Notes under the pieces: generated by a model
Databases searched by the model: none
The model's input: only the letters and a program-made list of their open reading frames with translations
What the model was told of the DNA's origin: nothing
Assembly (NCBI GenBank): GCA_016931955.1
Contig: JAFGDV010000004.1
Span: 1-29,519, forward strand
DNA: 29,519 nt
DNA from: Candidatus Altarchaeota archaeon
Lineage (GTDB): Archaea; Altiarchaeota; Altiarchaeia; IMC4; QMZM01
Reading direction: 5' to 3'
Part shown: positions 4,910-29,123 of the stretch, piece after piece
Numbering within the stretch: position 1 is the stretch's first letter
Layout of the letters: every line of letters begins with the position of its first letter
Position numbers and translations under genes: made by a program

Positions 4910-6175
4910 ATGAGTACCAGAACACAGAACATCAAGGTATTGATGTTTGGATGGGAGTTCCCGCCGTTCAACAGCGGGGGATTGGGCGTAGCATGCCAAG
5001 GTTTAACTAGAGGTCTGACTAGGCAGGGCGTTGAAATCCTGTTCGTTCTACCAAAAATACACGGGGCTTTAAATGAAGACTACATGAGAATCCTGTCAGC
5101 GGAGAGTTTCAACAAAAAAGTAGGAAAGATCACATTCAAGGCGGTTGACTCCATATTGAAACCCTACATGTCCTCCAAGAATTACAGATTAGAGATCACA
5201 GGACTTGAGGCGTTCATGGGAGAAGCGAAAGACATCTATGGATCAGACCTGTTCTCTGAGGTGAGGCGCTACTCAGCACACGCAAAAAACATAGCATTGC
5301 ATGAAGACTACAATGTGATACACTGTCACGACTGGCTTACCTTCCCAGCCGGCATCGTTGCAAAGAAGATGGCAGAGCTGCGGGGCTTAAAAACATCATT
5401 GATAACACATGTGCATGCGACGGAGTTCGACAGAACAGGCGGCATTCCAAATCAGTACGTGTATGACATAGAGAAGGTGGGAATGCATCATGCAGACTAC
5501 ATAATAACCGTGAGCGAGTACACGAAGAATATTGTCACAAAACACTACGGCATTGATCCGAAAAAGGTCCACGTAGTCCACAACTCGATCGATTTCAGCG
5601 AAAACGGAACCGAAGAGGAATTCAAGATAAAGAAACACTATAAGACCGTTCTCTTCCTCGGTAGGATGACCATACAGAAGGGACCAGACCACTTTCTATG
5701 GATCGCTAAGAGGATCTCTGAGCTAGATGACAACGTAAGGTTCATCATGGTGGGAAGTGGAGACATGTCAAGATACATAGTCGAGGAGGCTGCAAACATG
5801 GGCATAGGAGACAAGGTGCTCTTCTCAGATTTCCTTAATGGAAGAGACGTCGACAGGGCTTACAGGATGGCGGACGTCTACGTTATGAGCTCCATCTCGG
5901 AGCCATTTGGGATCACAGCATTGGAAGCTATGAAGAATCACACACCAGTTGTTATATCAAAGCAATCAGGCGTTTCAGAGATCCTGAAGAACTGCCTTGT
6001 CGCGGATTTCTGGGACGTGAATCTTATGGCTGACAAAATACTGTCTGTCCTCTACAACCCTGAATTGAGGAATCAGCTATTGGAGGAGGGGCTGAAGGAG
6101 ATCAGAAAATTCAGCTGGGACAGACCAGCAAACCAGTGCATAGAGATCTACAAAAGAGCGCTAGCAGGGTGTTAG
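4910..6175 (+). CDS. GT4-family glycosyltransferase (glycogen-synthase-like)
   Basis: A 421-residue retaining GT-B glycosyltransferase of family GT4. The N-terminal acceptor domain opens with LMFGWEFPPFNSGGLGVACQGLTRGL, the glycine-rich start typical of glycogen/starch-synthase relatives. HCHDWLTFPAGIVAKKM and ITHVHATEFDRTGG follow. The C-terminal donor domain has VLFLGRMTIQKGPDHFL, VGSGDM and SSISEPFGITALEAM, which contains the ExxxxxxxE motif that contacts the nucleotide-sugar. It is the first gene of a five-gene glycogen locus that matches the genes grouped in Methanocaldococcus (MJ1606-MJ1611 region). It may elongate or initiate the glucan, and the donor sugar nucleotide cannot be told from sequence. 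The next gene starts two bases after its stop. Confidence 0.88.
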   Translation: MSTRTQNIKVLMFGWEFPPFNSGGLGVACQGLTRGLTRQGVEILFVLPKIHGALNEDYMRILSAESFNKKVGKITFKAVDSILKPYMSSKNYRLEITGLEAFMGEAKDIYGSDLFSEVRRYSAHAKNIALHEDYNVIHCHDWLTFPAGIVAKKMAELRGLKTSLITHVHATEFDRTGGIPNQYVYDIEKVGMHHADYIITVSEYTKNIVTKHYGIDPKKVHVVHNSIDFSENGTEEEFKIKKHYKTVLFLGRMTIQKGPDHFLWIAKRISELDDNVRFIMVGSGDMSRYIVEEAANMGIGDKVLFSDFLNGRDVDRAYRMADVYVMSSISEPFGITALEAMKNHTPVVISKQSGVSEILKNCLVADFWDVNLMADKILSVLYNPELRNQLLEEGLKEIRKFSWDRPANQCIEIYKRALAGC

Positions 6176-6176
6176 A

Positions 6177-7373
6177 ATGGTTTCTGTCTGTTTTTACTTC
6201 CAAGTGCATCAACCTTACAGGCTGAAGAAGTACTCCATATTCGAAATAGGCAACGGCGGAAAATACTTCGACGAAGAAAAGAACAGGGAGATACTCAACA
6301 AGGTAAGTGGGAAATGCTATCTGCCTGCGAACAACCTGATACTCGACCTGATCCATGAAACAGACGGCAGATTCAAGGTAGCTTATAGTTTGACTGGCAT
6401 CATTCTAGAGCAATTTGAGGAACACAGGCCGGATGTCTTGGAGAGCTTCCAACGGCTGGTGGATACGGGATGCGTTGAGCTTCTGGATGAAACCTACCAC
6501 CATACACTGGCAGCGTTATACTCCGAGAAAGAGTTCAAAGAACAGGTGAAGCTCCACCGGAAGAAGATAAGGCAGTTGTTTGGATATAAACCAAAGATCT
6601 TCAGGAACACGGAACTGGTCTACAACAACCGGATAGCTTATCTTGCGGAACAGATGGGCTATGCAGGTGTTCTGGCTGAGGGGGCAGACTATATACTGGG
6701 CTGGAGGAGTCCCAATTTCGTCTACAGGGCAAAGATGGCGAAAGACATCAGATTACTGTTGAAGAATTATCGGCTATCGGATGACATAGCGTTCAGGTTC
6801 TCTCAGAGGGGGTGGGAGGGCTGGCCCCTAACAGCGGACAAATTCGCGGCCTGGGTTAACGCAGTGAATGGAAACGGCAACGTAGTTAATCTGTTCATGG
6901 ACTACGAAACCATTGGAGAGCACCAGTGGGAGGATACGGGGATCTTTGAGTTCCTACGCTATCTGCCGCGTGAAATACTGAGGAATCCGGACAACGACTT
7001 CAAGACGCCCTCTGAGGTGGTAGAAGCCTACGAACCAGTTGCTGAAATAGACATGAGGCAGGTGGTTTCGTGGGCAGACATCGAACGAGACCTCTCCGCT
7101 TGGCTGGGCAACCAGATGCAGAGGACGTCAATATCCAAGCTTTATGAACTGGAGGATAAGATAGAGAAAACTGGCGACCAAAAGCTGATAGATGACTGGC
7201 GGAGGCTTCAGACGACGGATCACTTCTACTACATGTGCACCAAGTGGTTTAACGACGGCGACGTGCACAAGTACTTCAATGCATATGATAGACCGCATGA
7301 CTCATTCATAGCGTTCACTAATGTTCTCACAGACCTAAGGATGAGGTTGAACGAGAAATCAATGTCGGCATAA
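6177..7373 (+). CDS. GH57-family alpha-amylase/glucanotransferase-like enzyme
   Basis: A 398-residue family 57 glycoside hydrolase acting on alpha-glucans. The conserved regions appear in order: VCFYFQVHQPYRL (region 1, HQP), GCVELLDETYHHTLAAL (region 2), FRNTELVYNN with the probable nucleophile Glu146 (region 3) and LFMDYETIGEHQW with the probable acid/base Asp242 (region 4). The C-terminal block QTTDHFYYMCTKWFNDGDVHKYF is typical of archaeal members. There is no signal peptide, so it is probably cytoplasmic and remodels or degrades storage glycogen. It sits between the GT4 gene (one intervening base) and the DUF5752 gene. Intact. Whether it is a hydrolase or a transferase cannot be decided here. 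Confidence 0.92.
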   Translation: MVSVCFYFQVHQPYRLKKYSIFEIGNGGKYFDEEKNREILNKVSGKCYLPANNLILDLIHETDGRFKVAYSLTGIILEQFEEHRPDVLESFQRLVDTGCVELLDETYHHTLAALYSEKEFKEQVKLHRKKIRQLFGYKPKIFRNTELVYNNRIAYLAEQMGYAGVLAEGADYILGWRSPNFVYRAKMAKDIRLLLKNYRLSDDIAFRFSQRGWEGWPLTADKFAAWVNAVNGNGNVVNLFMDYETIGEHQWEDTGIFEFLRYLPREILRNPDNDFKTPSEVVEAYEPVAEIDMRQVVSWADIERDLSAWLGNQMQRTSISKLYELEDKIEKTGDQKLIDDWRRLQTTDHFYYMCTKWFNDGDVHKYFNAYDRPHDSFIAFTNVLTDLRMRLNEKSMSA

Positions 7374-7388
7374 AAAAAGAGGTGAAAA

Positions 7389-7706
7389 ATGGCAAAAACA
7401 AAAAAGAAAAAAACAACAAAAACAGCAATCAAGGATGCGAAGAAGTTTTTGAGCGACGTACCGGCTGATAAGTGCTTCTGGGTTAACAACGGTTGGATAA
7501 TGAGAAACCTGCAGGAGCTACCCCTCGCATTGGAAAACATGGGTGAAGAAACCTTCGTCTACCACGTGAACAAGGCCAAGAACGACTTCCACAACTGGAT
7601 AACCCATGTGATCGGGGATAAGACGCTCGCACAGGGTATAAAGAGTTCCAATAAAAAAGACATGTTAGCCAAAGTCAAGAAAAGGATAGCGCAGCTTAAA
7701 GGATGA
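7389..7706 (+). CDS. DUF5752 family protein linked to glycogen synthase
   Basis: A 105-residue protein that matches the DUF5752 pattern as I know it: CFWVNNGWIMRNLQELPLAL, then METFVYHVNKAKNDFHNWI-like wording (here GEETFVYHVNKAKNDFHNWITHVIGD) and DKTLAQGI. The function is not established. The first 20 residues are very lysine-rich and encoded by A-rich DNA. Its stop overlaps the start of the GT3 glycogen synthase in an ATGA junction, so the two proteins are likely made in fixed proportion. A clear AAAGAGGTGAAAAATG ribosome-binding context precedes the start. I infer a structural or regulatory partner in glycogen synthesis from position only. Confidence 0.8.
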   Translation: MAKTKKKKTTKTAIKDAKKFLSDVPADKCFWVNNGWIMRNLQELPLALENMGEETFVYHVNKAKNDFHNWITHVIGDKTLAQGIKSSNKKDMLAKVKKRIAQLKG

Positions 7707-9481
7707 ACAAGAATTACCTCTTTGAGGTTAGCTGGGAGGTCTGCAACAAGGTCGGGGGGATAAATACTGTTATAGTATCGAAGACCCCCTATCTGGTTAG
7801 GCACTACAAGGAAAACTACTGCCTCATAGGCCCCCACCTACCTGAGAAGGCGGTTGCCGAATTCCAAGAGAAGATCCCGCCAGATAAGCTGCACCACATC
7901 TTCGAGAGATTACATGGTGAGGGCATAGTATGCCACTACGGCAGATGGCTTATAAACGACAATCCATCGACGATATTAGTCGATTACACAGGATACACCA
8001 AAAAGAACAACGATATAAAGGCTAGACTCTGGGAGGAATACAAGATAGATTCTCTGGGGACATACTTCCATGACTTCGATGAGCCTATCCTATGGGGGCA
8101 CGCCGTCGGTAGACTACTTGAGGAGATATGCCAGTCATACAAGCGAAAAAAGGTCGCACAGTTCCATGAATGGTTGAGCTGCGGGGCCCTACTATACCTC
8201 AAGATGAGGAAGGTCAAGATAGGAACGGTTTTCACAACCCACGCCACGATGCTTGGGAGGACTCTGGCCGGCAATAATGTCGACCTGTACAACCTCCTTG
8301 GGAAGATAGATCCAGAAGAGGAAGCGTATAACTGGAATATGGCGGCAAAACACCAGGTTGAAAGGGTTTCAGCGCATGTCTGTGACGTCTTCACCACAGT
8401 AAGCGAGATAACGGCGATTGAGGCAGAACACTTCCTGAAAAAGAAACCGGATATCTTATTGTTTAATGGCATCGACCTAAAGAATCATCCAAGCTTCGAC
8501 GAGGTGGCAGTGAAGCATAGACTCTACAGGGAGAAGATAAAGGACTTCATACAGTACTACTTTTTCCCCTACTATTCCTTCGACTTGGATAACACACTCA
8601 TATACTTTATATCAGGTAGGTACGAGTTCCACAACAAGGGGTTGGACGTATTCATCCAAGCACTTGGTAAACTGAATCAAAAACTGAAAAACGAGAAATC
8701 GAAGAGATCCATTGTAGTATTCTTCTGGATTCCGGCCGACGTGGTGAGGATAAAACCAAGCCTGTCGAAGGCGCGGGCATATTATGATGACATAAAGGAT
8801 TCCATCAACGACGACATAGATACGATAAAGAAGAAGATGATCACATGCCTAGTATCCAAGCAGTCAATAACCGAATGCAGGCTGTTCTCTAATGATTTCA
8901 TGAATCAGACCGATAAGAAGGTCCTCAGGTTTCTGATACAGGGGAACCCACCACTCTGCACCCACGACCTCAAGAACGAAGAAAATGATCCGATACTTAA
9001 GAGCTTCAATGAAGAGGGCTTACTGAACAGAAAAGAGGATCCAGTGAAGGTCGTATTCTATCCCATATACCTGACAGGAGCAGATAGTCTATTAGACCTA
9101 ACCTACGACGAAGCAGTCATTGGATCACATCTGGGGGTTTTCCCATCATATTATGAGCCATGGGGTTACACCCCCCTCGAAACCGCCGCACTTGGTGTGG
9201 CATCTGTGACAACAGATTTCAGCGGATTCGGCAGATACCTTGAGATAGATTCTGCGAGGGATAACATGGGCGTGTTCGTCATAGACATGCTGGGTAAGAG
9301 TGACAGGAAAAAAGTGGATAACCTCTATGAGTCACTATACAATTTCTCTAGCTTAAGCACCGACGAGAGGGTGAGGAACAAGGTCGAAGCACAGAGGTTA
9401 TCGATCCTCGTGGACTGGGAGATACTCATCCACAACTATCTGAAGGCTCATCAGTTGGCTTTAGAAAGGGCATACAGGTAA
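7703..9481 (+). CDS. GT3-type (eukaryote-like) glycogen synthase
   Basis: A 592-residue glycogen synthase of the GT3 class, which includes yeast and animal enzymes and some archaeal and bacterial ones. It adds glucose from a nucleotide-sugar to alpha-1,4-glucan. The N-terminus FEVSWEVCNKVGGINTVIVSK is diagnostic. QFHEWLSCGALLYL and TTHATMLGRTLAG follow. The donor site SYYEPWGYTPLETAALGVASVTTDFSGFGRYLE contains the ExxxxxxxE pair. A lysine-rich segment around residues 320-420 resembles the insertion between the two Rossmann domains in GT3 enzymes. The start is fixed by the ATGA overlap with the DUF5752 gene. The next gene begins one base after the stop. Intact. UDP- versus ADP-glucose use is undetermined. 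Confidence 0.93.
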   Translation: MNKNYLFEVSWEVCNKVGGINTVIVSKTPYLVRHYKENYCLIGPHLPEKAVAEFQEKIPPDKLHHIFERLHGEGIVCHYGRWLINDNPSTILVDYTGYTKKNNDIKARLWEEYKIDSLGTYFHDFDEPILWGHAVGRLLEEICQSYKRKKVAQFHEWLSCGALLYLKMRKVKIGTVFTTHATMLGRTLAGNNVDLYNLLGKIDPEEEAYNWNMAAKHQVERVSAHVCDVFTTVSEITAIEAEHFLKKKPDILLFNGIDLKNHPSFDEVAVKHRLYREKIKDFIQYYFFPYYSFDLDNTLIYFISGRYEFHNKGLDVFIQALGKLNQKLKNEKSKRSIVVFFWIPADVVRIKPSLSKARAYYDDIKDSINDDIDTIKKKMITCLVSKQSITECRLFSNDFMNQTDKKVLRFLIQGNPPLCTHDLKNEENDPILKSFNEEGLLNRKEDPVKVVFYPIYLTGADSLLDLTYDEAVIGSHLGVFPSYYEPWGYTPLETAALGVASVTTDFSGFGRYLEIDSARDNMGVFVIDMLGKSDRKKVDNLYESLYNFSSLSTDERVRNKVEAQRLSILVDWEILIHNYLKAHQLALERAYR

Positions 9482-9482
9482 G

Positions 9483-11222
9483 ATGCGGGTTCTTCACACA
9501 TTGGGCGATAAGACCATCTCCAGAAACGTTGAGGAGGATGTCGCCTTCATGCTGGGAAACAAGAAAGGCGGTTATGTCTATTTTTCTACAGGAAAGAAGA
9601 GCAGATACGAGGGCGTGTTCCTGCAACTGAACAAGAGGATGTACAGGGTCATCGCATACATCGGCCTTGAGAAAAAACCAGATAAGATAGTGAACAGGTT
9701 CCACTCAGTTGAGAGACACGTGAATGAGAACAGGGAGAGGTTTATGATGCCCTACAACCTAAACTCGATAGTCTACGAACTGGAGAAGGCTGATTGGATA
9801 AACATCTCGTTGGATGTTAGGGAGTCCTACGACACCTCAGCCCCTGGTTCATATGAGATCCTTGAGAAAGATAAAGCTGTGATAGTGAAATGCAGCAAAG
9901 ACGGTAAAGAATCCTTTGTCTCCATCAAGGCGGAGAGGCCAAAATATGAGCTCTTGGGGGAGTTCAATACAGACTACAATGAAAGAGACATGGAGAGGAA
10001 TTCCCCACCATATGAGATAATCGTACATAAAACATTGAGGGTCAGGTCAAAAAAGCTTGCAGTAGCTTTCTCAGACGACATGGAAACAGCAGTCAATGAG
10101 TCAACTCACGTGCTAAAGAACTTGAAGAGGATCAAAGAGGAACAGGAAAATCATGTGAAAGATCTCATAAAAAAGGAGGCTGTTGGATCAGATGAGACCT
10201 GGATGGCATACAACTGCTGCATCAACTCCCTGGATCAGCTCACCTGCCCTGATGGAATAGTTGCCGGATTCCCATGGTTCTTCCAACCTTGGACGCGGGA
10301 TGAACTGGTGTCTGTAAAGAAGGTAAGAAGCGATCTAGGAAAAAGAATACTCCTCAAGAATCTGGGTTACATCATGGACGACGGCAGGATACCCAACATG
10401 TTGTCTAACACAGAGGTCGTTAATGCTGACAGCATAGGATGGCTCTTCAAGAGAATAGATGAGTCACTACCTATGTTCAACAAAAAAGAGCGCAACCTCC
10501 TCAAAGAAAAATTAATCGAGAGCATAATGCGTCTCAATGAAACCCATGTGAAAGACCTGCTGGTATACAACAAACGAGGAGAGACTTGGATGGATTCATC
10601 CTACGATGATAATGGAAGAGAGGGCGCAAGAATCGAGATACAGGCACTGACGGTCTGCATGTATGGCATGGCATACAGGCTCACACATAACGAGAAATTC
10701 CTGCAGCTGAAGAGATTCTTGATTGAAAAGGTGAGACAGAGATTCTGGGATGGGGGCTACCTGAAGGATGGTTCAGATGATCCTACAATAAGACCCAATG
10801 CATTCATTGCGGCATACCTCTGCCCCACGATCCTAACCATGGATGAGTGGGCGACTTGCTTTGAGATGATCCTACCAAGGCTGTGGTGTGAATGGGGTGG
10901 ACTGTCTTCGATCGATAGAAAACATCCGCTCTACACTGAACGCTCTACTGGGGAGGACACTAAGAGCTATCATCGCGGGGATTCATGGTATTTTCTAAAC
11001 AACATGGCAGCACTTGTACTGCACAGGATTGACCGAAAGAGATTCCTGAAATACATCGGGGACATAGCTGAAGCATCAACAGAAGACATACTATGGAAAG
11101 GAATGATCGGGCACCACTCAGAGATAAGCTCTGCAGCCGAACAAAAGGCCGAAGGCTGCGGCGCCCAGGCATGGAGTGCGGCATTGTATCTTGAAATGAT
11201 AGACGAACTTTTTCTGAATTAG
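9483..11222 (+). CDS. Amylo-alpha-1,6-glucosidase (glycogen debranching enzyme, GH133 type)
   Basis: A 579-residue debranching-enzyme-like protein. An N-terminal beta-rich domain (about 1-200) precedes an alpha/alpha-barrel C-terminal catalytic domain. Recognisable blocks are DGIVAGFPWFFQPWTRDEL near 260-278, GRIPNMLSNTEVVNADSIGWLFKRID, WMDSSYDDNGREGARIEIQALTVCMYGMAYRL and the terminal EGCGAQAWSAALYLEMID. These match the archaeal/bacterial GDE family, which hydrolyses alpha-1,6 branch points of glycogen. It is the last gene of the operon. The next gene has its own TATA box about ten bases after the stop. Intact. A glucoamylase-like activity is an alternative name used for some homologues. Confidence 0.9.
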   Translation: MRVLHTLGDKTISRNVEEDVAFMLGNKKGGYVYFSTGKKSRYEGVFLQLNKRMYRVIAYIGLEKKPDKIVNRFHSVERHVNENRERFMMPYNLNSIVYELEKADWINISLDVRESYDTSAPGSYEILEKDKAVIVKCSKDGKESFVSIKAERPKYELLGEFNTDYNERDMERNSPPYEIIVHKTLRVRSKKLAVAFSDDMETAVNESTHVLKNLKRIKEEQENHVKDLIKKEAVGSDETWMAYNCCINSLDQLTCPDGIVAGFPWFFQPWTRDELVSVKKVRSDLGKRILLKNLGYIMDDGRIPNMLSNTEVVNADSIGWLFKRIDESLPMFNKKERNLLKEKLIESIMRLNETHVKDLLVYNKRGETWMDSSYDDNGREGARIEIQALTVCMYGMAYRLTHNEKFLQLKRFLIEKVRQRFWDGGYLKDGSDDPTIRPNAFIAAYLCPTILTMDEWATCFEMILPRLWCEWGGLSSIDRKHPLYTERSTGEDTKSYHRGDSWYFLNNMAALVLHRIDRKRFLKYIGDIAEASTEDILWKGMIGHHSEISSAAEQKAEGCGAQAWSAALYLEMIDELFLN

Positions 11223-20792: not shown

Positions 20793-21563
20793 CTAATGGA
20801 GATCAGAGATATGCTGTTTGTTGGGCCTTATTTTTGCAAGTATGTTTTTTTCGGTTTCTTTCAGGTCTGGGAGTGATGGCACTAGGGGTTGCAGTTCGGT
20901 TTTCCATGCTTTTTCTGTTATGTTGAGTTTTTTTCTGAAGTTTTTCGGATCCCATCCCTTGCCGTAGTACTTCATCTTTTCTTTGGCGAGTTTTTTGTCG
21001 AATCCGATGCCTTTCGTTAGTAGGAATTGTAGGTCGTAGATGTCTCTGGCTTTGTTTCTCGTTAATATTGCCCTGATTTTTTCTGCTAGTATCTCTTTTT
21101 CCTGCATTACGTAGACGTCGAATGAGGGTATTTCGTTGAGGAATCTGCCGATTGTTTTCACTTGAGGCGGCAGGATGACGTTTTCTCTGAAGCTGAGGTC
21201 GACTATGAATTTGCAGAGCGTCTGACGTATTCCTGTATAAAGGGGTCCATGTAGTCGGTAGATTGTTTTGATGCCGTTGGGGTATTTTTCGGCTTCTTTT
21301 TCGTATTCTATTCCGAACCTCTTTAAGCCGCGGTCAAGGATTTTGGTGTCTGTTTTTTCTGTTGAGGTGAAGTCCAAGTCTTCGCTGAATCGGTCGAGGC
21401 CGTAGCATTTCTTCAGTGCCGTGCCTCCTTTGAAGATCAGTTCTTTTCCGTATTCCTGATACAGGACGAACAAGGCTATGCTTTGGAAGTAGTCTTTCTC
21501 TGCTTGTCCGAGGTTTAGGCGGGTTGTTTTCGCGTATTCCTGCAGTTCTTTTTTTGTTATCAT
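20793..21563 (-). CDS. abiEii: AbiEii-type nucleotidyltransferase toxin
   Basis: A 256-residue protein of the AbiEii/MenA nucleotidyltransferase family, the toxin of AbiE type IV-like systems; related MenA toxins modify tRNA. The core is LIFKGGTALKKCYGLDRFSEDLDFTS (GGTxLxK and DxD), with LAEKIRAILTRNKARDIYDL further on, both hallmarks. An in-frame ATG at 21578 would add five residues. The ATG at 21563 has GGAGGGTGA upstream and overlaps the AbiEi stop in an ATGA junction, so it is chosen. It is the distal gene of the abiEi-abiEii operon and looks intact. Confidence 0.9.
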   Translation of the reverse strand: MITKKELQEYAKTTRLNLGQAEKDYFQSIALFVLYQEYGKELIFKGGTALKKCYGLDRFSEDLDFTSTEKTDTKILDRGLKRFGIEYEKEAEKYPNGIKTIYRLHGPLYTGIRQTLCKFIVDLSFRENVILPPQVKTIGRFLNEIPSFDVYVMQEKEILAEKIRAILTRNKARDIYDLQFLLTKGIGFDKKLAKEKMKYYGKGWDPKNFRKKLNITEKAWKTELQPLVPSLPDLKETEKNILAKIRPNKQHISDLH

Positions 21564-22243
21564 GTCTTCACCCTCCACTTGGCATTTGATTTAATTCCCT
21601 CAGAGAATGGATCCAGTGATACATAATTTCTGTCGAGCCGGAATTTTTTAGAGATATCGATTCCCTTAGCCTCTTCAAGCAGGTAGCCGGACCTTTTTGT
21701 GACCGCCTGTTTGTTTACTCTCTTTAGGTATTCGACCAGTTTTTCCGCGGATAGGTCGGCTTTTTTGAATATGTTCCGTATTTCGTCGATGTTGCCTGCT
21801 TTTTCGGGTCGTAGGAGGCAGTCTATTGCGAGTTTTTCGTCTTCTGAGATGAACAGTTCTCCCTCATCTGTCCTGATTTTCCGGTATCCGAAGAAGTGTT
21901 TAATGGGTATGAACTCTATCCTGTATCCCTCAAATTGGATGGGAAGTATCCTTCTTCTCGTGGCTACGTGTACTGTTTTGAGTATCTGCTCCGTGTATCC
22001 CAGGAAGGCGGACGCAGACCAGAAGGATATGTATGAAGGGTATGTTATGTTGCTTGCTATGAGGTGTATGTCTGTTTTTGTCGTGTATGCGTTTCTCCTC
22101 ACTTTTTTTATTAGTTTTTTTGCTTTCAGCCTCTGTATCATCTGTTTTGCATTTTGTCTGCTGTGTCCTGTTAGCCGTTCCACGTCCTGGATCCTGAAGA
22201 CCGGCTTTGCGCGTAGTCTGTCAAGCAGTTCGATGTTTTTCAT
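21560..22243 (-). CDS. abiEi: AbiEi-type winged-helix antitoxin
   Basis: A 227-residue protein with an N-terminal winged helix (FRIQDVERLTGHSRQNAKQMIQRLKAKKLIKKVRRNAYTT) followed by an AbiEi-like C-terminal region. The YISFWSASAFLGYTEQ and RIEFIPIKHFFGYRKI stretches are typical. In bacterial systems AbiEi represses its own promoter by binding inverted repeats and counteracts the AbiEii toxin. Here the start codon is buried in a perfect 15-bp palindrome, and GTATAC repeats lie just upstream. It is translationally coupled to abiEii through ATGA. Intact. Confidence 0.88.
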   Translation of the reverse strand: MKNIELLDRLRAKPVFRIQDVERLTGHSRQNAKQMIQRLKAKKLIKKVRRNAYTTKTDIHLIASNITYPSYISFWSASAFLGYTEQILKTVHVATRRRILPIQFEGYRIEFIPIKHFFGYRKIRTDEGELFISEDEKLAIDCLLRPEKAGNIDEIRNIFKKADLSAEKLVEYLKRVNKQAVTKRSGYLLEEAKGIDISKKFRLDRNYVSLDPFSEGIKSNAKWRVKT

Positions 22244-22487: not shown

Positions 22488-22578
22488 TTGAGCGTTTTTT
22501 TTGGAGGCAGATAATAGGTGGTGTTTCATTCTCCTGTTTTTTATTCCCCTGTTTGTTGGAATTGTGGTGGCTGGGAAA

Positions 22579-22587
22579 GTATATATA
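22579..22587 (+). promoter_or_regulatory. TATA box of the KaiC/V4R gene set
   Basis: GTATATATA lies about 50 bases before the ATG at 22635. The ribosome-binding site GAGGTG (22622-22627) precedes that ATG by seven bases. As the next five genes are tightly spaced or overlapping, this is the most likely promoter for all of them. Confidence 0.55.
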
Positions 22588-22634
22588 ATCAAACTATCTA
22601 ATCATTTATAGAATCCTATGTGAGGTGGCTTTGA

Positions 22635-23375
22635 ATGGCTGTTAATCGCGTTAAGTCAGGTATCTCTGGTTTAGATGAGTTGATTCAGGGTGGTTTTCCT
22701 GAAGGTTCTTCAGTCCTTGTTACTGGCTCTCCAGGTACAGGGAAAACGATTTTTGGTTTGCAGTTCCTCGTTGAAGGAGCGAAAAACAACGAACCTGGAA
22801 TCTATCTGACCTTCGAGGAAACCAAGAAAAAGGTCTTAGATCAGGGCGAACAATTTGGCTGGGATCTTGGAAAATTGGAGAAAGAAGGTAAGCTGATTAT
22901 TAACTCTGTTAGTGATGCCGACATTGGTGAGATATTAAAGAATTTGTCGGATGAGACCAAGAAGATCAAGGCTAAAAGGCTCGTCATAGATTCTCTTTCC
23001 ACTCTTTTGGAGTCGGCTCGTCGTTATACTTCCAAGCTTCAGAAGGAAGTACACAAGCTTGGTAAGGGGGAGCATGGTATATGCTTGCCTGAGCCGATGG
23101 AGAAGGTTACTCGTGAGGATGTCTTCTATATCATCCGTGAGATAAACAAGCTTGAACTAACAACGTTAATGATATCCGAGGCTCCTAAGGAGGGGGACTA
23201 TCTTTCAAGAGATACGATTTCAGAGTTTGTCTGCGATGGTGTTATCGAATTAAAGGCGATAGGGGGTATAGGTAAGAGAACGTTAACGATCAGTAAGTTG
23301 CGATCTACCCAACACAACATTACTTCCTTGGATATGGGGATCACAGATAAGGGCATAGCTATTGAAGCAACGTAG
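22635..23375 (+). CDS. KaiC-like single-domain ATPase (first copy)
   Basis: A 246-residue RecA-fold ATPase of the KaiC family, one domain long. Residues 8-20 (SGISGLDELIQGG) are the KaiC lead-in. Walker A is GSPGTGKT at 31-38. The catalytic glutamate pair follows strand IYLTFEET (Glu61-Glu62). Walker B is RLVIDSLSTLLE. LSRDTISEFVCDGVIEL and ISKLRSTQHN near the end are family features. A short segment around GEHGICLPEPMEKVTRED is unusual to me and absent in the same form from the second copy. Archaeal KaiC-like proteins are thought to act as ATP-driven signalling hubs. Twelve bases separate it from the second kaiC-like gene. Confidence 0.93.
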   Translation: MAVNRVKSGISGLDELIQGGFPEGSSVLVTGSPGTGKTIFGLQFLVEGAKNNEPGIYLTFEETKKKVLDQGEQFGWDLGKLEKEGKLIINSVSDADIGEILKNLSDETKKIKAKRLVIDSLSTLLESARRYTSKLQKEVHKLGKGEHGICLPEPMEKVTREDVFYIIREINKLELTTLMISEAPKEGDYLSRDTISEFVCDGVIELKAIGGIGKRTLTISKLRSTQHNITSLDMGITDKGIAIEAT

Positions 23376-23387
23376 TTTTGATTAATC

Positions 23388-24128
23388 ATGGAAAGAACCA
23401 ATACAGGGATTAAAGGACTTGATAAGTTATTAGGTGGGGGAATACCTAAAAATCACTTGGTACTTTTAACAGGACAGACAGGAGCAGGCAAGACCATTCT
23501 TGGACTTCAATACTTAATAAAAGGAGCAATAGATTATGGTGAAAAAGGAATTTACATAAGCTTTGAGCAGGGGAAAGAAGATATCCTCCTACAAGCAAAG
23601 CAGTTGGGGTGGGATGTAGAGGATCTTGAAAAAAAAGAATTGGTTAAGGTTCTCACCTTCAAACCAGGGAAAACACATCTTACAGTGATAACAGAAAATC
23701 TTGAAGAAAATGTTAAGAAATTCAACCCAGAAAGATTAGTTTTTGACTCAATCTCTACGTATGGCATCTACGCTGAAACTTTCAGCTTTTTTGAGATGGC
23801 AATGGACTTGGGGCTGAATAAAGAGAAAGTCAATTTTGGTTTGACTCCAGAATCAGCCACAAGAAAAACTATAATGAATATAATGGAAAAGATAAAATCT
23901 TTTAATGTAACCTCTTTAGTAATTTCAGAACTCCCAGAAACAACGAGTTATCTCAGCAGAGACACGATTTCGGAGTTCATCGCTGATGGTGTTATAATCC
24001 TAAAACATGTGCCAATAGGTAATAATCTTAATAGGAGCATTGAAGTACGGAAAATGAGATGCACTGAGATGGGAGAAGGAACCTATTCTTACACTATAAC
24101 TAAAAAAGGTATTGTGGTGGAGGGATAA
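23388..24128 (+). CDS. KaiC-like single-domain ATPase (second copy)
   Basis: A 246-residue paralogue of the preceding gene. It has IKGLDKLLGGGIP, Walker A GQTGAGKT (29-36), IYISFEQG and Walker B RLVFDSIST, then LSRDTISEFIADGVIIL and VRKMRCTEMGEGTYSYTIT. The usual glutamate pair is Glu60-Gln61 here, so it keeps one acidic residue of the pair. Identity to the first copy is moderate, which argues for an old duplication and perhaps a hetero-oligomer rather than redundancy. The stop and the next start share a base in a TAATG junction, suggesting coupled translation with the V4R-like protein. Codons are more AT-rich than in the metabolic genes on the left. Confidence 0.93.
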   Translation: MERTNTGIKGLDKLLGGGIPKNHLVLLTGQTGAGKTILGLQYLIKGAIDYGEKGIYISFEQGKEDILLQAKQLGWDVEDLEKKELVKVLTFKPGKTHLTVITENLEENVKKFNPERLVFDSISTYGIYAETFSFFEMAMDLGLNKEKVNFGLTPESATRKTIMNIMEKIKSFNVTSLVISELPETTSYLSRDTISEFIADGVIILKHVPIGNNLNRSIEVRKMRCTEMGEGTYSYTITKKGIVVEG

Positions 24129-25264
24129 TGGACTTGAAGGATAGCGCACTCAGGTTTTATGTGAAGGGATATATTATACCAAGAGCTCTTATTTTCGACA
24201 AGCCAGGTTTCGTTGATTTTAGGATATCTGGGAAAACCGAAATTTTTGCAAGACAACTTATCCTCCCAGAAAGTTTTTTTGTGAAACTGGAACAAAATTT
24301 AATCGAAAAATTTGGTGAATCTGCTGAAAGAATGATGTATTCTCTCGGTAAAAGATTTGGATATAGTTTTGCCCAACAAGGAAGATTTGAAAATACTAAA
24401 GATCATCCTGGAGATAAAGTGAAAAATTGGATTGTTGTGGCAAGTAAATTCGTTGAAGGAACTTACGCTAGTAATATCTCTCAGACAATAGATGTAAAAA
24501 AGAAAATTGTAGATTATACCCTGAAGAACTTTGTCGTATGTAGGAAATTAGGATATGACTTCTTCTTCGCTACAGGTGGCGCAGCAGGTCTTATTGCATG
24601 GATTCTGCAAGATCCAAAAATAGAGGGGCGACTATATGACAGCAAATTTAATGAAGAAGAACATGTTTGCAAAGTTAAATGTGCACCGATGGAAATATTA
24701 AAAGAATCATTTGAGGATAGACTTTACGTTGAGACTAACCTTGGTGGTTTAGAGCAAGATCCTGCGACATACCGAGATTTCAACCGTGAAGTAGATATCC
24801 AATGGAAAAAATCATTCCAGACTTTCTTGGATGCTAAAATATTCAACTATGCCGGCGGTATAATATCCTATAAAAATGAGCGTTTTTTCCTTATGGAAGT
24901 GAGTGGCGTGTACCTATTGGAAAAGGGGATGGAAACCGAAGATATGAAAAAAATAATGTTTGATTCAGCGTTTTCTGTGGGAAAAGAGATATTTAGTGAC
25001 ATAGGAAAAAACGATGTTTTGAGTATCATGGAGTTGCTTTCAGCTTTGGGTTGGGGTGAGGTCTCTATATATCCCTCATCCAAAACGAAGGTTATAATGA
25101 CCCATTTTCCTTGGACAAAATATTATAAAGACGTGGAGTATATACTCATCAGGGGACTGCTTTCCGGGATTATCTCAAGAATATACGGTAAAGATATCAT
25201 CTATGGAAAGCCCGGTTTGGATATATCAACTGGTCATTTATCCCTGATTTTTGAGCCGAATTAA
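24128..25264 (+). CDS. V4R-like double-domain protein beside kaiC
   Basis: A 378-residue soluble protein. I read it as two V4R (4-vinyl-reductase/ligand-sensor)-like halves. The first spans roughly 50-200 (PESFFVKLEQNLIEKFGESAERMMYSLGKRFGYSFA and GAAGLIAWILQD), the second roughly 245-375 (FDSAFSVGKEIFS, LSALGWGEVSIYPSS and LIRGLLSGIISRIYGKD). V4R domains are thought to bind small, often hydrophobic ligands. The cysteines that mark many V4R domains are missing from the second half, so the relationship is distant. It is translationally linked to the second kaiC-like gene. A ligand-sensing subunit that feeds the ATPases is an inference from position. The fold call is tentative. Confidence 0.6.
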   Translation: MDLKDSALRFYVKGYIIPRALIFDKPGFVDFRISGKTEIFARQLILPESFFVKLEQNLIEKFGESAERMMYSLGKRFGYSFAQQGRFENTKDHPGDKVKNWIVVASKFVEGTYASNISQTIDVKKKIVDYTLKNFVVCRKLGYDFFFATGGAAGLIAWILQDPKIEGRLYDSKFNEEEHVCKVKCAPMEILKESFEDRLYVETNLGGLEQDPATYRDFNREVDIQWKKSFQTFLDAKIFNYAGGIISYKNERFFLMEVSGVYLLEKGMETEDMKKIMFDSAFSVGKEIFSDIGKNDVLSIMELLSALGWGEVSIYPSSKTKVIMTHFPWTKYYKDVEYILIRGLLSGIISRIYGKDIIYGKPGLDISTGHLSLIFEPN

Positions 25265-25265
25265 A

Positions 25266-26048
25266 ATGAAAAAAATAGGGCCTGTGGAAAGGAAGATATA
25301 CGAACTAAGACAAGAACACCCATTTGTTATACCCCAAGTTGATCCTGATAAATTTAACTCTGATACAGTTACTGAACTTTTCAGTGATATCAGAGAGATG
25401 GGCATAAACCATATTGCAGTAGGAGGAACAATACTCGATATGACCTCTTTTCAAAAAATCGTTGACATAGCGGTCAAAGATTTTGATTTCACTCTCGTTA
25501 CATATATGACAAATACTGCTATTGGTCTTCTTCAAGGTTACTCCAAGAAAACAGCCGTTTATTGGATGACTGTTCTGAATTCAGAAAATCCCTTTTATCT
25601 GAGGGATTCACTGATTATGTGCTCCATTGCAGTATCACTCCACGATTTTGAACCGCTTCCGACAGCATACGTTTTTGATGACCGTGGTTCTTTCATGGCG
25701 GCTAATTGGCTTGCCCGCGTGGTTCCTGTGCCTCGGGAGGAGCAGTCGATTAGTCTATCTATCGCATTGGCAGCTGAATTTTCAGGTTCCAGGTTTTATA
25801 TTATGGCGGGGGGTTCTGAGAGTAAACTCCACCCCCCCGCAGACCATGTGAGATTATTAACAAAGGAAACAGACTTATTTGTTATCCCTACAAGTGGAAT
25901 TAGAACGCTAAAACATGCAGAGGAAATGTTTGAGGCCGGTGCGGATGCCATACATGTCGGAAGATTGATTGAGGATAAAAAAGGCTTAGACATATTATCT
26001 AAGATTGTTAAATCATCGAAAAAGTATCCTGGTAAAGAGTTTTTATGA
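25266..26048 (+). CDS. Divergent geranylgeranylglyceryl phosphate synthase-like TIM barrel
   Basis: A 260-residue protein with the GGGPS/PcrB pattern: IPQVDPDKFNSDTV, INHIAVGGTILD, TAYVFDDRGSFMA, the A-x-FSGSRFYIMAGGSESKL region and VIPTSGIRTLKHAEEMFEAGADAIHVGRLIED. True GGGPS joins glycerol-1-phosphate to geranylgeranyl diphosphate for archaeal lipids. Several active-site positions differ: the YLExGSG stretch reads YIMAGGSE, GGGIR reads TSGIR, and the final VGN is HVGR. It may therefore use another phosphorylated substrate. A TTG at 25251 would add five residues inside the V4R gene; the ATG at 25266 is chosen. Its stop overlaps the HAD gene in an ATGA junction. Confidence 0.78.
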   Translation: MKKIGPVERKIYELRQEHPFVIPQVDPDKFNSDTVTELFSDIREMGINHIAVGGTILDMTSFQKIVDIAVKDFDFTLVTYMTNTAIGLLQGYSKKTAVYWMTVLNSENPFYLRDSLIMCSIAVSLHDFEPLPTAYVFDDRGSFMAANWLARVVPVPREEQSISLSIALAAEFSGSRFYIMAGGSESKLHPPADHVRLLTKETDLFVIPTSGIRTLKHAEEMFEAGADAIHVGRLIEDKKGLDILSKIVKSSKKYPGKEFL

Positions 26049-26752
26049 AAAAATCAGTTCTCTGGAAGAAGATACGTGACATAGAGTATATTGTCTTTGA
26101 CTTTGATGGCTCTATTTACCCATGCATCCTCTTACTTGACTTGGCCCTAGACTTCTTTTATTCTTATAGTGGAGAAAAGGGGGAGTTTATGGCAGAAAAA
26201 CGCTCGAGACTCCTTAGTTTGATTGGTGAAAAAAACAAAAAAAGTTTTTATGAGCTTTCGTTAGAGTTTGCCTCTGTTCTTGAAGGGATTCCATGCGTTG
26301 AATTCAACAAAAAAATCCCTGTTTTTCTGCAGAATTGTTATCCAAATGCCTTAAAGTTTATTAATGCCTTAAAGAAGCGGGGGAAAAAATGTTTTCTTGT
26401 TTCTTTGACTTCTGAGGCAGTTTCTAGAGAGGCTATGCAGATGTTCGGTTTTGATGGCTACTGGTGTAGGACACTAAGAAAGACAATAAAAGAAGGAGTT
26501 GAGTTCTTTGATGGAAATTATGTTGACAACATTAATGATCTTACCGAATTCAAAGCTAGGTGCTTAGATGAATTCAAAATCCGAGATGAAGTTTTTGGTA
26601 TGGTAGGAAATGATGTAGAGGATGTTCTATTGTTTGAATCGGCCTATCTAAAAGTTGGTGTTAATCCAACAAAAGAATTAATGGATGAGGTCGATTTGGA
26701 TTTTGTTTTGGTTGACAGAAAAGATCCGTGGAGTAAATGCATTGATTTTTAG
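26045..26752 (+). CDS. HAD-superfamily hydrolase
   Basis: A 235-residue HAD hydrolase. Motif I is IVFDFDGSIYP with Asp19 and Asp21, motif II is FLVSLTSEA, motif III is the lysine in TEFKARC, and motif IV is MVGNDVEDVLLFESA. A helical cap lies between motifs I and II (about 30-100). Such proteins usually remove phosphate from small molecules. It overlaps the GGGPS-like gene by four bases, which suggests consecutive chemistry, for example making a prenyl or other phosphate ester and then dephosphorylating it. That pathway is speculation. Substrate unknown. Intact. Confidence 0.88.
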   Translation: MKKSVLWKKIRDIEYIVFDFDGSIYPCILLLDLALDFFYSYSGEKGEFMAEKRSRLLSLIGEKNKKSFYELSLEFASVLEGIPCVEFNKKIPVFLQNCYPNALKFINALKKRGKKCFLVSLTSEAVSREAMQMFGFDGYWCRTLRKTIKEGVEFFDGNYVDNINDLTEFKARCLDEFKIRDEVFGMVGNDVEDVLLFESAYLKVGVNPTKELMDEVDLDFVLVDRKDPWSKCIDF

Positions 26753-26772: not shown

Positions 26773-27060
26773 ATGAAGTTAATAGTCTTTGTTTTTATAT
26801 CCCTTGTTGGGGCTTATTTGGGAGATTTTTTTAGTTGGTTTTTGTTTTTTTATGTCTATATACCTTATTGTTGGTGGTTTTTTATGTCGGAGGATTTTAG
26901 GGGTTTTTTGATTTTGTTTTTGGTCGGCTGTTTCATTGCATTCATGTGGTTTGGCGGTTTTGTTAGGGGCTCTTTTATCGAGTTTGTTGTTGGAAGTTTC
27001 CTGCTTTTTTCAGGCATTCTAATGTATCTGATTTATGAACACATCTATGACCCTAGGTGA
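26773..27060 (+). CDS. Small membrane protein, unknown function
   Basis: A 95-residue, strongly hydrophobic protein rich in Phe, Trp and Tyr, with about three membrane segments (roughly 1-37, 44-63 and 68-88). I recognise no family. It follows the HAD gene after 20 bases on the same strand, so it may be the last gene of the KaiC/V4R set, though the gap and lack of a clear ribosome-binding site leave this open. The DNA is T-rich, as expected for a hydrophobic protein, and part of the reading frame could be fortuitous. Confidence 0.5.
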   Translation: MKLIVFVFISLVGAYLGDFFSWFLFFYVYIPYCWWFFMSEDFRGFLILFLVGCFIAFMWFGGFVRGSFIEFVVGSFLLFSGILMYLIYEHIYDPR

Positions 27061-27210: not shown

Positions 27211-28443
27211 ATGTTGAAGTGTCCTGTCTGTAGGGAAAAGGTTCAGAAGGTGTGGGTTTTCTGTCCGAGGTGCAGTGCGAGGCTGGATTCTAGCTTAGAT
27301 AATAAGTATCATTTAGAAAGTATACGGTATCTCTGGGAGCGGCAGGAGGGTGGGAAGTTTTTGTATTCGAATTTTGAGGCAGTAAAAAATGCAGGTATTA
27401 TGCCGTACAAGAAAGTTGAATCCATACGTTCTGTTTTAGGAGATTTTGCGCATATATACTTCCATGGCTTATATGAACTTTCACTTCTTTATGTGGTTCC
27501 TGCTTTTGCGGCAGAGTTCTACAAAATCGGCAAGTTCATAGGATATTATAGTGCATATGAAGCCATAGAGACGTTAAGATTGGAAAAGCTTGTGAACGCC
27601 CTAAGTAAAACAGCTTTGTTTTGGGAGATTTTTCAGAATAGTAAGGTACAGGCCGCTCAAAAGAGAGGATGGAGGGCTGTAGGGGCTGCAGTTATTGATC
27701 TGACAGAAATTGATAAAGAAAAAAGGATGCTGAAGTATGTGATGGACTATTCGGTTGAGTCAATATTCCATAACACGTCTAAGCCCACTTGTTTTCTAGC
27801 GTGCGGTATCTTGTGTGGCAATGTTGAGTCTCTTTTTGGCGACTTTTGTGATGGAATCGAAACAAAATGCAGATCTACCGGAGATCTACAATGCGAAATT
27901 GAAGCTTATCTGCATGAAAGGGAAGAGAAGCCAAAAATAATCCCCTTAACACGAGATGAAGCCGACACACTACTTAATGAGTTAATCGGGTACGTTATCA
28001 ATAAAAGAATCCTAGATAGGAAGGAATTAGGTGATTCTGTTCATATTATATCCCCCCAGTGTCAAAATTACCTGCTACTTTCGATTTCGCCCGGCCACGC
28101 GGTTCTTTCGAGATATGCTGGGAGGGTCTGCGGGGAAAGGATTGCAAGAGAATCAGAGCTCCAAGGATTAGAAAACGCACTGGAATATCTGGAAGACCTT
28201 TTCCTCCACTTGAAGGCAGGCATACTTCAATGTGAAAAAAGGCAGGATAGGCTCATAATCAGGATGCGTGAATCTGTCTATGCCTCAGGCGTAAACAACA
28301 TCCACATGAATCTGTGCATCTTTCTTGCTGGAATCATGGAAGGAATACTGAATGAGGTGACAGATAAGAAGTGGGACGTCAACGAAATAAAATGCATCGC
28401 AAGCGGCTTCTCAGAATGCGAATTCTGGTGTAAGACTATTTGA
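27211..28443 (+). CDS. Zinc-ribbon protein with two V4R domains
   Basis: A 410-residue protein. Residues 1-25 form a zinc ribbon (CPVCREK, then FCPRCSARL). The first V4R domain covers roughly 55-235: LSLLYVVPAFAAEFYKIGKFIG, then HNTSKPTCFLACGILCGNVESLFG, then ETKCRSTGDLQCEIEAY, the typical cysteine-bearing pattern. The second covers about 265-410 and ends MNLCIFLAGIMEGILNEVTDKKW, then CIASGFSECEFWCKTI. V4R domains are considered sensors of small ligands, and the zinc ribbon suggests contact with nucleic acid or a protein partner. It may be a stand-alone sensor or regulator related to the V4R/KaiC genes upstream. No membrane segment. Intact. Confidence 0.82.
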   Translation: MLKCPVCREKVQKVWVFCPRCSARLDSSLDNKYHLESIRYLWERQEGGKFLYSNFEAVKNAGIMPYKKVESIRSVLGDFAHIYFHGLYELSLLYVVPAFAAEFYKIGKFIGYYSAYEAIETLRLEKLVNALSKTALFWEIFQNSKVQAAQKRGWRAVGAAVIDLTEIDKEKRMLKYVMDYSVESIFHNTSKPTCFLACGILCGNVESLFGDFCDGIETKCRSTGDLQCEIEAYLHEREEKPKIIPLTRDEADTLLNELIGYVINKRILDRKELGDSVHIISPQCQNYLLLSISPGHAVLSRYAGRVCGERIARESELQGLENALEYLEDLFLHLKAGILQCEKRQDRLIIRMRESVYASGVNNIHMNLCIFLAGIMEGILNEVTDKKWDVNEIKCIASGFSECEFWCKTI

Positions 28444-28467: not shown

Positions 28468-29123
28468 TTATTTCATGCATTTTGTGAGTATGATGTTTTT
28501 GTCTATGATCCAGTGGGGTAGTTTTTCTCTGAGTTCGCGGGAATAGCCTGCTGGTACGGATGTGCTATATACTTGCTTATTGTGGTATTTTATTATTTCT
28601 GCGGCAGGCAGAAAGTCGGCGTCTCCGGAGAATAGGATACATTGGTTGCATTCGTTTTTGATTATGCATATGTCGAGCATATCCACCGCCATCATGACGT
28701 CAACCCCCTTCTCTCTTTTCCTGATGTTCCCTATGCAGCCCCTACAGTTAGCCTCTATCAGAGGACGGTAGCTGTCACACAAATCAAGGCTGTCTATTAT
28801 CGCCTGCTTCTCTGCTAACACTTCCTGGGTTGAGTGCCTCTGCAGCTTCCTTGTTTTAACAACAAAACCAGGCAGCTTACGTATATCCTCTAAGAACCTC
28901 ATATGATCATATACATTTTTTCTCCGTCACTGATGCTGGGAACCGAATTATAGTAATAGGTTTTACTTCGAATGCAATTAAAATGCTGACAGACAAGTTC
29001 ACTTAACTTGTAAAAATCTACGAAACTCGGCTTTATGTCCATTGATCTTATGTTGTGGTAGAAGTTGTTACCGTCTATGAAAACAATTGCGTGCCTCTCA
29101 GAAGAAGTTCTTCCAGCCATCAA
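28468..29123 (-). pseudogene. NYN-domain (LabA-like) nuclease split by a frameshift in an A-run
   Basis: Two adjacent minus-strand frames form one NYN (PIN-like) RNase domain. The first (29123-28899, 74 residues) has AIVFIDGNNFYHNIRSMD. The second (28902-28468, 144 residues) continues with RFLEDIRKLPGFVV, KGVDVMMAVDML and ILFSGDADFLPAAEII, the remaining acidic motifs. Neither half alone carries all catalytic aspartates. The break follows a run of six A on the coding strand (T at 28916-28921). A seventh A would give GEKNVYDHMRFLEDIRKL and restore one protein of about 218 residues. The frames overlap as ATGA, which can be mistaken for coupling. Sequencing error, true mutation and slippage are all possible. 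Confidence 0.8.

Follow-up and report, generated by a model that had tools for sequence, protein, structure and literature searches.

A conserved archaeal gene set combining KaiC ATPase, a tandem V4R-type protein and a remodelled relative of GGGPS

Organisation and recurrence of the gene set

A stretch of 29,519 nucleotides from Candidatus Altarchaeota archaeon (contig JAFGDV010000004.1; the whole stretch is referred to as the window) harbours five closely spaced open reading frames (ORFs) on the same strand, termed K1, K2, V4, GG and HD. They encode two KaiC-type ATPases, a predicted ligand-binding protein, a relative of GGGPS and a predicted phosphatase of the HAD type (Table 1). The junctions between them measure 12, −1 (TAATG), 1 and −4 (ATGA) bases. 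ORF coordinates and gaps agree with a preliminary description of this DNA, which was also correct in naming two KaiC proteins, a GGGPS-like barrel and a HAD protein, as all of these exceed the Pfam cut-offs. K2, V4, GG and HD are four small proteins, none with predicted membrane parts.

Table 1 Features of the five-gene locus in the window
Feature	Position	Strand	Basis and remarks
TATA-like promoter element TATATATAAT	22578..22590	+	Predicted, consensus only; about 50 bases 5′ of the first ATG (K1)
K1, extra single-domain KaiC ATPase	22635..23375	+	PF06745, 204.5 bits; variable, non-core
K2, core single-domain KaiC ATPase adjoining V4	23388..24128	+	PF06745, 195.4 bits
V4, tandem XylR_N-like and V4R-like predicted ligand-binding protein	24128..25264	+	AlphaFold2 model, fold matches
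GG, GGGPS-family barrel with remodelled acceptor site	25266..26048	+	PF01884, residue table, model, tree
HD, HAD-IB type phosphatase (predicted)	26045..26752	+	PF12710; motif and position conserved

A genome scan with the GG protein revealed four further archaeal loci, in Diapherotrites (L018) and Micrarchaeota (L019-L021). In L018-L020 the neighbouring genes follow in the same order, and V4 is 51-54% identical to V4 of the window. Altogether 10 complete loci with a gene of this GG clade were available from four archaeal phyla (the window and nine relatives), while an eleventh (L021) starts inside GG at a contig end. The order KaiC-V4-GG-HAD is the same in all 10 complete loci. Identities of V4 orthologs amount to 51-71%. 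This recurrence is far beyond chance and rules out chance adjacency of the genes. The preliminary description had proposed to look for conserved adjacency in archaeal genomes; recurrence, in every complete locus and across four phyla, is what was found. Most intergenic gaps lie between about −26 and +25 bases, with a KaiC-V4 gap of 126 bases in L059. Three of the 11 GG-branch loci also contain a geranylgeranyl reductase (GGR)-type FAD protein, which is inserted between GG and HAD in L018 and between V4 and GG in L020.

In profile scans the GG clade proved rare, with scores cleanly apart from those of canonical GGGPS. Members were detected in 1/29 genomes of the window's phylum, namely the window's own, in 5/301 of the Micrarchaeota phylum (full-length members at least 376 bits, next best 129), in 3/87 of the phylum of L018 and in 2/34 of a fourth phylum.

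The preliminary description had treated the five genes as one unit. A real and recurrent unit does exist, but its conserved core consists of the four genes K2-V4-GG-HD. A KaiC gene occupies the K2 place in all 10 complete loci, whereas only L064 and L058 possess a further KaiC in the K1 place. All five genes are present in L064, which comes from another phylum, and its identities to the window amount to 70% for K2, 71% for V4, 64% for GG and 48% for HD, compared to 37% for K1. Because the extra KaiC is this variable, K1 is a loose addition outside the core. The GC content of K2, V4, GG and HD is 0.36-0.40 (0.33-0.35 at third codon positions), compared to 0.43 in K1 and 0.47 in the upstream 20 kb. 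As K2 to HD are AT-rich relative to the upstream region, the four-gene core probably arrived as a block, beside or together with K1.

Walker A is intact (GxxxxGKT) in K1, where it reads GSPGTGKT, and in K2. The catalytic pair is EE in K1 and EQ in K2. In the KaiC proteins encoded next to V4, Walker A is intact in all readable sequences. In nearly all of them another residue takes the place of the second E of EE (EQ, DM, DS etc.), a change that would be more in keeping with a slow switch than with a motor. A circadian KaiC can be ruled out, since K1 and K2 are single-domain proteins scoring 118.7 and 107.9 bits against the double-domain equivalog TIGR02655, far below its cut-off of 546 bits. 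A hetero-oligomer of both KaiC proteins, as suggested earlier, is not supported and an obligate KaiC pair is ruled out: in 7 of the 10 complete loci a single KaiC gene is located upstream of V4. LabA is a KaiC-related clock factor in cyanobacteria, and an NYN-domain protein encoded at 28468-28902 (−) shows a weak match to a LabA-like model, but its nearness to the KaiC genes may be chance.

HD matches PF12710 with 30.7 bits (cut-off 27), and its match to TIGR01490/HAD-IB is weak. The DxDG motif is found in HD of all 10 complete loci. A phmmer search of HD against the PDB found no relative.

Properties of the GG and V4 proteins

GG belongs to the PcrB/GGGPS family PF01884 (47.8 bits, cut-off 23.9). 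The NCBIfam models also place it among GGGPS proteins, but it reaches none of their specific cut-offs (133.8 of 247 bits with the best model). Its predicted structure (predicted local distance difference test score, pLDDT, 79.6; predicted template modelling score, pTM, 0.83) matched group II GGGPS first (TaGGGPS, Z 23), followed by MoeO5 (Z 19.9) and PcrB (Z 18).

For a comparison of the active sites, 10 clade members were aligned with 9 canonical proteins. The roles of the canonical residues, including a Tyr and the Glu that bind and polarise glycerol-1-phosphate, are described in PMC9385802. There, Tyr/Tyr/Glu of MtGGGPS are numbered 134/178/180, while the 4MM1 chain counts 130/172/174; residues were therefore mapped by motif. 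The Asp that serves Mg and diphosphate binding (D26 in GG, D25 in MtGGGPS) is retained in all 10 members, and Y135, S184, G211 and G232 are retained in the clade as well. The catalytic carboxylate, Glu or Asp in 9/9 canonical proteins, is replaced by Ala (A181) in 10/10 members. Furthermore, the phosphate-binding glycines of loop 7 are changed to T209-S210 in 10/10, the second position being Gly in 9/9 canonical proteins, and the Tyr two residues ahead of the catalytic Glu is Ile or Val, which breaks the YLEAGSG motif. Four polar residues (Q24, D138, R140, H194) are newly invariant among the 10 members at an overall identity of about 50%. Thus the altered active-site positions claimed for the barrel are borne out by the residue table. 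GG has the GGGPS fold, but in a tree the clade is single (98/100) and separated from canonical GGGPS by a long stem. One row of the tree (c_L032), probably a wrongly extracted frame, has a very long branch and was disregarded.

Retention of the prenyl-diphosphate/Mg side, together with an acceptor side rebuilt with invariant residues, suggests that the enzyme has been modified and is not in decay. A canonical GGGPS is also present in the 5/5 genomes checked, and in the window's genome it adjoins a gene that reads, by eye, as glycerol-1-phosphate dehydrogenase. Because the canonical enzyme coexists in the same genomes, GG appears to be an additional enzyme of altered type, and the simplest assumption is that its acceptor differs from glycerol-1-phosphate. 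That GG is just another GGGPS copy, like the haloarchaeal paralogs, is ruled out by the alteration of catalytic Glu and phosphate loop in all members.

A separate observation concerns the ordinary GGGPS of several Micrarchaeota (L036, L037, L043, L060, L062), in which ITD.GSN replaces YLEAGSG (Tyr to Ile, Glu to Asp), although Tyr and Glu of this motif have been termed strictly conserved (PMC9385802).

V4 gave no match to a Pfam family above cut-off and none to V4R; the best was XylR_N (PF06505) with 15 of the required 23 bits (E 0.021). An AlphaFold2 model (pLDDT 63, pTM 0.66) was obtained from a shallow alignment of the window and L018-L020 sequences. Within this model, residues 34-204 adopt the fold of the phenol sensors PoxR/MopR/DmpR (Z 12.9), and residues 233-378 that of the V4R protein MJ1460 (Z 10.1), followed by Bet3/TRAPP subunits. 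The V4R/Bet3 fold is thus predicted for both halves, in line with the double V4R sensor that had been considered probable and for which a structure prediction had been proposed. V4R domains are predicted hydrocarbon binders (PMC2253512), and palmitate or phenols are ligands of related V4R-type cavities (PMC10933270). The V4R sensor of DmpR holds the ATPase in check (PMC7264223).

Downstream of the set lie genes for a small hydrophobic protein of 95 amino acids (26773-27060, +) and for a zinc-ribbon and V4R protein (27211-28443, +; PF02830, 74 bits; partial match to MsvR). The proximity of a further V4R protein to V4 is suggestive, although the related loci conserve neither of the two genes.

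V4-family genes away from GG

The V4 profile matched in 11/394 sampled archaeal genomes, 32/301 genomes of the Micrarchaeota phylum and 7/87 of the phylum of L018. GG-type V4 proteins score above 550 bits, and all others stay below 340 bits and occur in genomes without a GG-clade gene. We surveyed 47 V4-family loci away from GG, counting as neighbours genes within three genes of V4. KaiC is a neighbour in 39/47 and a prenyltransferase in 33/47 (UbiA in 26, weak UbiA in 4, cis-prenyltransferase in 3). With GGR-like genes (5 loci) and methyltransferases (6 loci), any isoprenoid-type enzyme is found in 36. The 34 genomes scanned average 2.8 UbiA genes, so that about 1.5% of genes would be expected to have one within three genes by chance. 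Shared ancestry inflates the corresponding binomial figure (about 1e-35), yet the effect remains large. Gene order and orientation vary among these loci, and most such genomes have several UbiA copies, of which the V4-linked gene is one.

Since V4 is found elsewhere near KaiC and near other prenyltransferases, the window's set is one branch of a wider KaiC-V4R-prenyltransferase theme. In the V4 tree the GG-type proteins form one clade (100/100). Its sister group consists of V4 proteins encoded next to genes for weak UbiA, methyltransferase and cis-prenyltransferase, a topology suggesting that the GGGPS-like enzyme was adopted only once. The same main groups (the window with L064; L019/L020/L055/L056) appear in the V4 and the GG tree, as expected if the two genes travel together.

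Several V4 and KaiC loci (L114-L118, L144, L145, L148) carry a S-adenosylmethionine (SAM) methyltransferase, a weak UbiA and/or a cis-prenyltransferase (PF01255), and may represent a second, possibly richer, isoprenoid cluster. In L012 (8581-9708, G040:C4) a V4-family gene beside UbiA is broken by an in-frame TAG, for which sequencing error, decay or readthrough could account.

Other genes of the window include an AbiE-type toxin-antitoxin pair just upstream of the set (20793-22243, −; AbiEii 119.8 bits with an AbiEi-like partner) and a glycogen/alpha-glucan gene set (4910-11222, +) comprising glycosyltransferase, GH57, glycogen synthase and amylo-1,6-glucosidase. A role of the five-gene set in anti-phage defence was considered and rejected, as PADLOC gave only weak matches at the level of the ATPase.

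A possible isoprenoid-sensing module and its alternatives

V4 and KaiC are repeatedly paired with three kinds of prenyltransferase. Our favoured, tentative reading (probability about 0.42) is that the set represents a self-contained module which makes and senses an isoprenoid compound. For its chemistry, ligand and output we infer the following course, the enzyme and sensor steps from homology and gene linkage. With Mg2+, GG would ionise a prenyl diphosphate and transfer the prenyl group to a phosphorylated acceptor other than glycerol-1-phosphate. The HAD protein would then strip the phosphate to leave a hydrophobic product, whose chain the GGR-like flavoprotein may reduce in some genomes. 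This product could lodge in a cavity of V4, which would alter the nucleotide state or the assembly of the single-domain KaiC, similar to the control in DmpR but in trans, and KaiC would relay the signal onward to its targets. The preliminary description had proposed an isoprenoid-like or phosphorylated small molecule read out by a KaiC hetero-oligomer. An isoprenoid-related compound stays the best guess and has gained weight because V4/KaiC pairs elsewhere lie beside UbiA, cis-prenyltransferases, GGR-like reductases and methyltransferases; the hetero-oligomeric readout is not supported.

Several points weigh against such a module. The V4 model is of moderate confidence only, GG lacks the catalytic carboxylate, so that it may be inactive or perform other chemistry, and HD of the GG-clade loci falls into two rather different HAD branches. 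Furthermore, the genes conserved with the set include none for a dedicated output (transcription factor, pilus, transporter).

The main rival, possible but less probable, reverses the direction of control: V4 and KaiC would act as regulator or scaffold of the enzyme, V4 sensing a membrane lipid or precursor and KaiC switching prenyl transfer with ATP to tune lipid composition. Pairing with prenyltransferases of unrelated folds (GGGPS-like, UbiA, cis type) is what a general regulator would show, and the hosts are archaea, whose membranes need prenyl chains. However, canonical GGGPS and most of the DGGGPS-type UbiA genes of the same genomes are located elsewhere, and bare regulation would not need a rebuilt acceptor site in GG. 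It is rather unlikely that the genes form, without any signalling, a pathway to a prenylated cofactor or redox lipid of quinone- or chromophore-like nature, with V4 as carrier or enzyme and KaiC as ATPase for assembly or remodelling. UbiA, GGR-like reductase, SAM methyltransferase and cis-prenyltransferase next to V4 elsewhere do resemble a small tailoring pathway, but ring-forming or redox enzymes are not conserved, the GG branch having HAD alone with GGR in the few loci mentioned above, and most V4R proteins with an established function sense ligands.

The loss of the catalytic Glu and of the loop-7 glycines in every member could also mean that GG is a dead barrel which only binds a prenyl (di)phosphate or another phosphate and thereby provides the KaiC hub with a second sensor. 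We regard this as improbable, given that the Mg-binding Asp is invariant at about 50% overall identity, as are several new polar residues, and that prenyltransferases of other folds occupy the same place in other V4/KaiC loci. That the genes were merely carried along together, e.g. on a horizontally transferred island, would agree with the rarity and patchy distribution of the set and the AT-richness of K2 to HD. Such adjacency without functional meaning is very hard to reconcile with an order kept in 10/10 loci from four phyla at about 50% protein identity, and with the V4-KaiC-prenyltransferase pairing elsewhere in varying gene orders.

The self-contained module might even work as an autoinducer-like circuit, in which HAD and a prenyltransferase, either GGGPS-like or UbiA, produce an isoprenoid signal, diffusible or borne by the membrane, for detection by V4 and readout by a KaiC ring. 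This extension is doubtful; it would imply that Micrarchaeota, Diapherotrites and further archaea use KaiC in chemosignalling by isoprenoids.

The component families are known. Group II GGGPS (MtGGGPS 4MM1, TaGGGPS 6JO3) and GG are homologous in sequence and share the TIM-barrel (Z 22-23), the Mg/diphosphate Asp and one conserved Tyr. GG differs by the exchanges of Glu to Ala, of the partner Tyr to Ile/Val and of GG to TS in loop 7, by its new invariant polar residues and by its constant location in a KaiC-V4 operon; the clade thus fails two defining features of GGGPS. A precedent for another acceptor is MoeO5, the farnesyl transferase of moenomycin synthesis, which has the GGGPS fold and uses 3-phosphoglycerate (PMC9385802). 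Nevertheless, MoeO5 is only 14% identical to GG in the structural alignment and belongs to a bacterial antibiotic pathway without KaiC or V4R. As in the present set, a V4R-type ligand domain is coupled to a P-loop ATPase in DmpR/XylR/MopR/PoxR, the best structural match for the N-terminal half of V4. These regulators combine sensor, AAA+ ATPase and DNA-binding domain in one protein, whereas here a tandem V4R protein and a RecA-like KaiC are separate, and the Zn-site cysteines of their sensors are not conserved in V4. Archaeal UbiA proteins (DGGGPS relatives) beside V4/KaiC have the same neighbours and module position as GG, but are integral membrane enzymes of unrelated fold. Archaeal KaiC signalling modules (Makarova et al. 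2017) likewise have a single-domain KaiC gene beside a probable sensor gene; as far as the abstract and citations of that work tell, dedicated isoprenoid-transfer enzymes and a phosphatase distinguish the present set. We found no description of the KaiC-V4R-prenyltransferase combination in the searchable literature, to which the full text of that KaiC-hub paper does not belong.

Archaeal KaiC proteins are numerous and mostly without known function. If the module operates as proposed, archaeal KaiC would gain a concrete input, namely an isoprenoid ligand that the enzyme encoded nearby produces. The set also indicates that the GGGPS family has a new branch whose acceptor site is rebuilt, and perhaps that archaea contain a novel prenylated compound.

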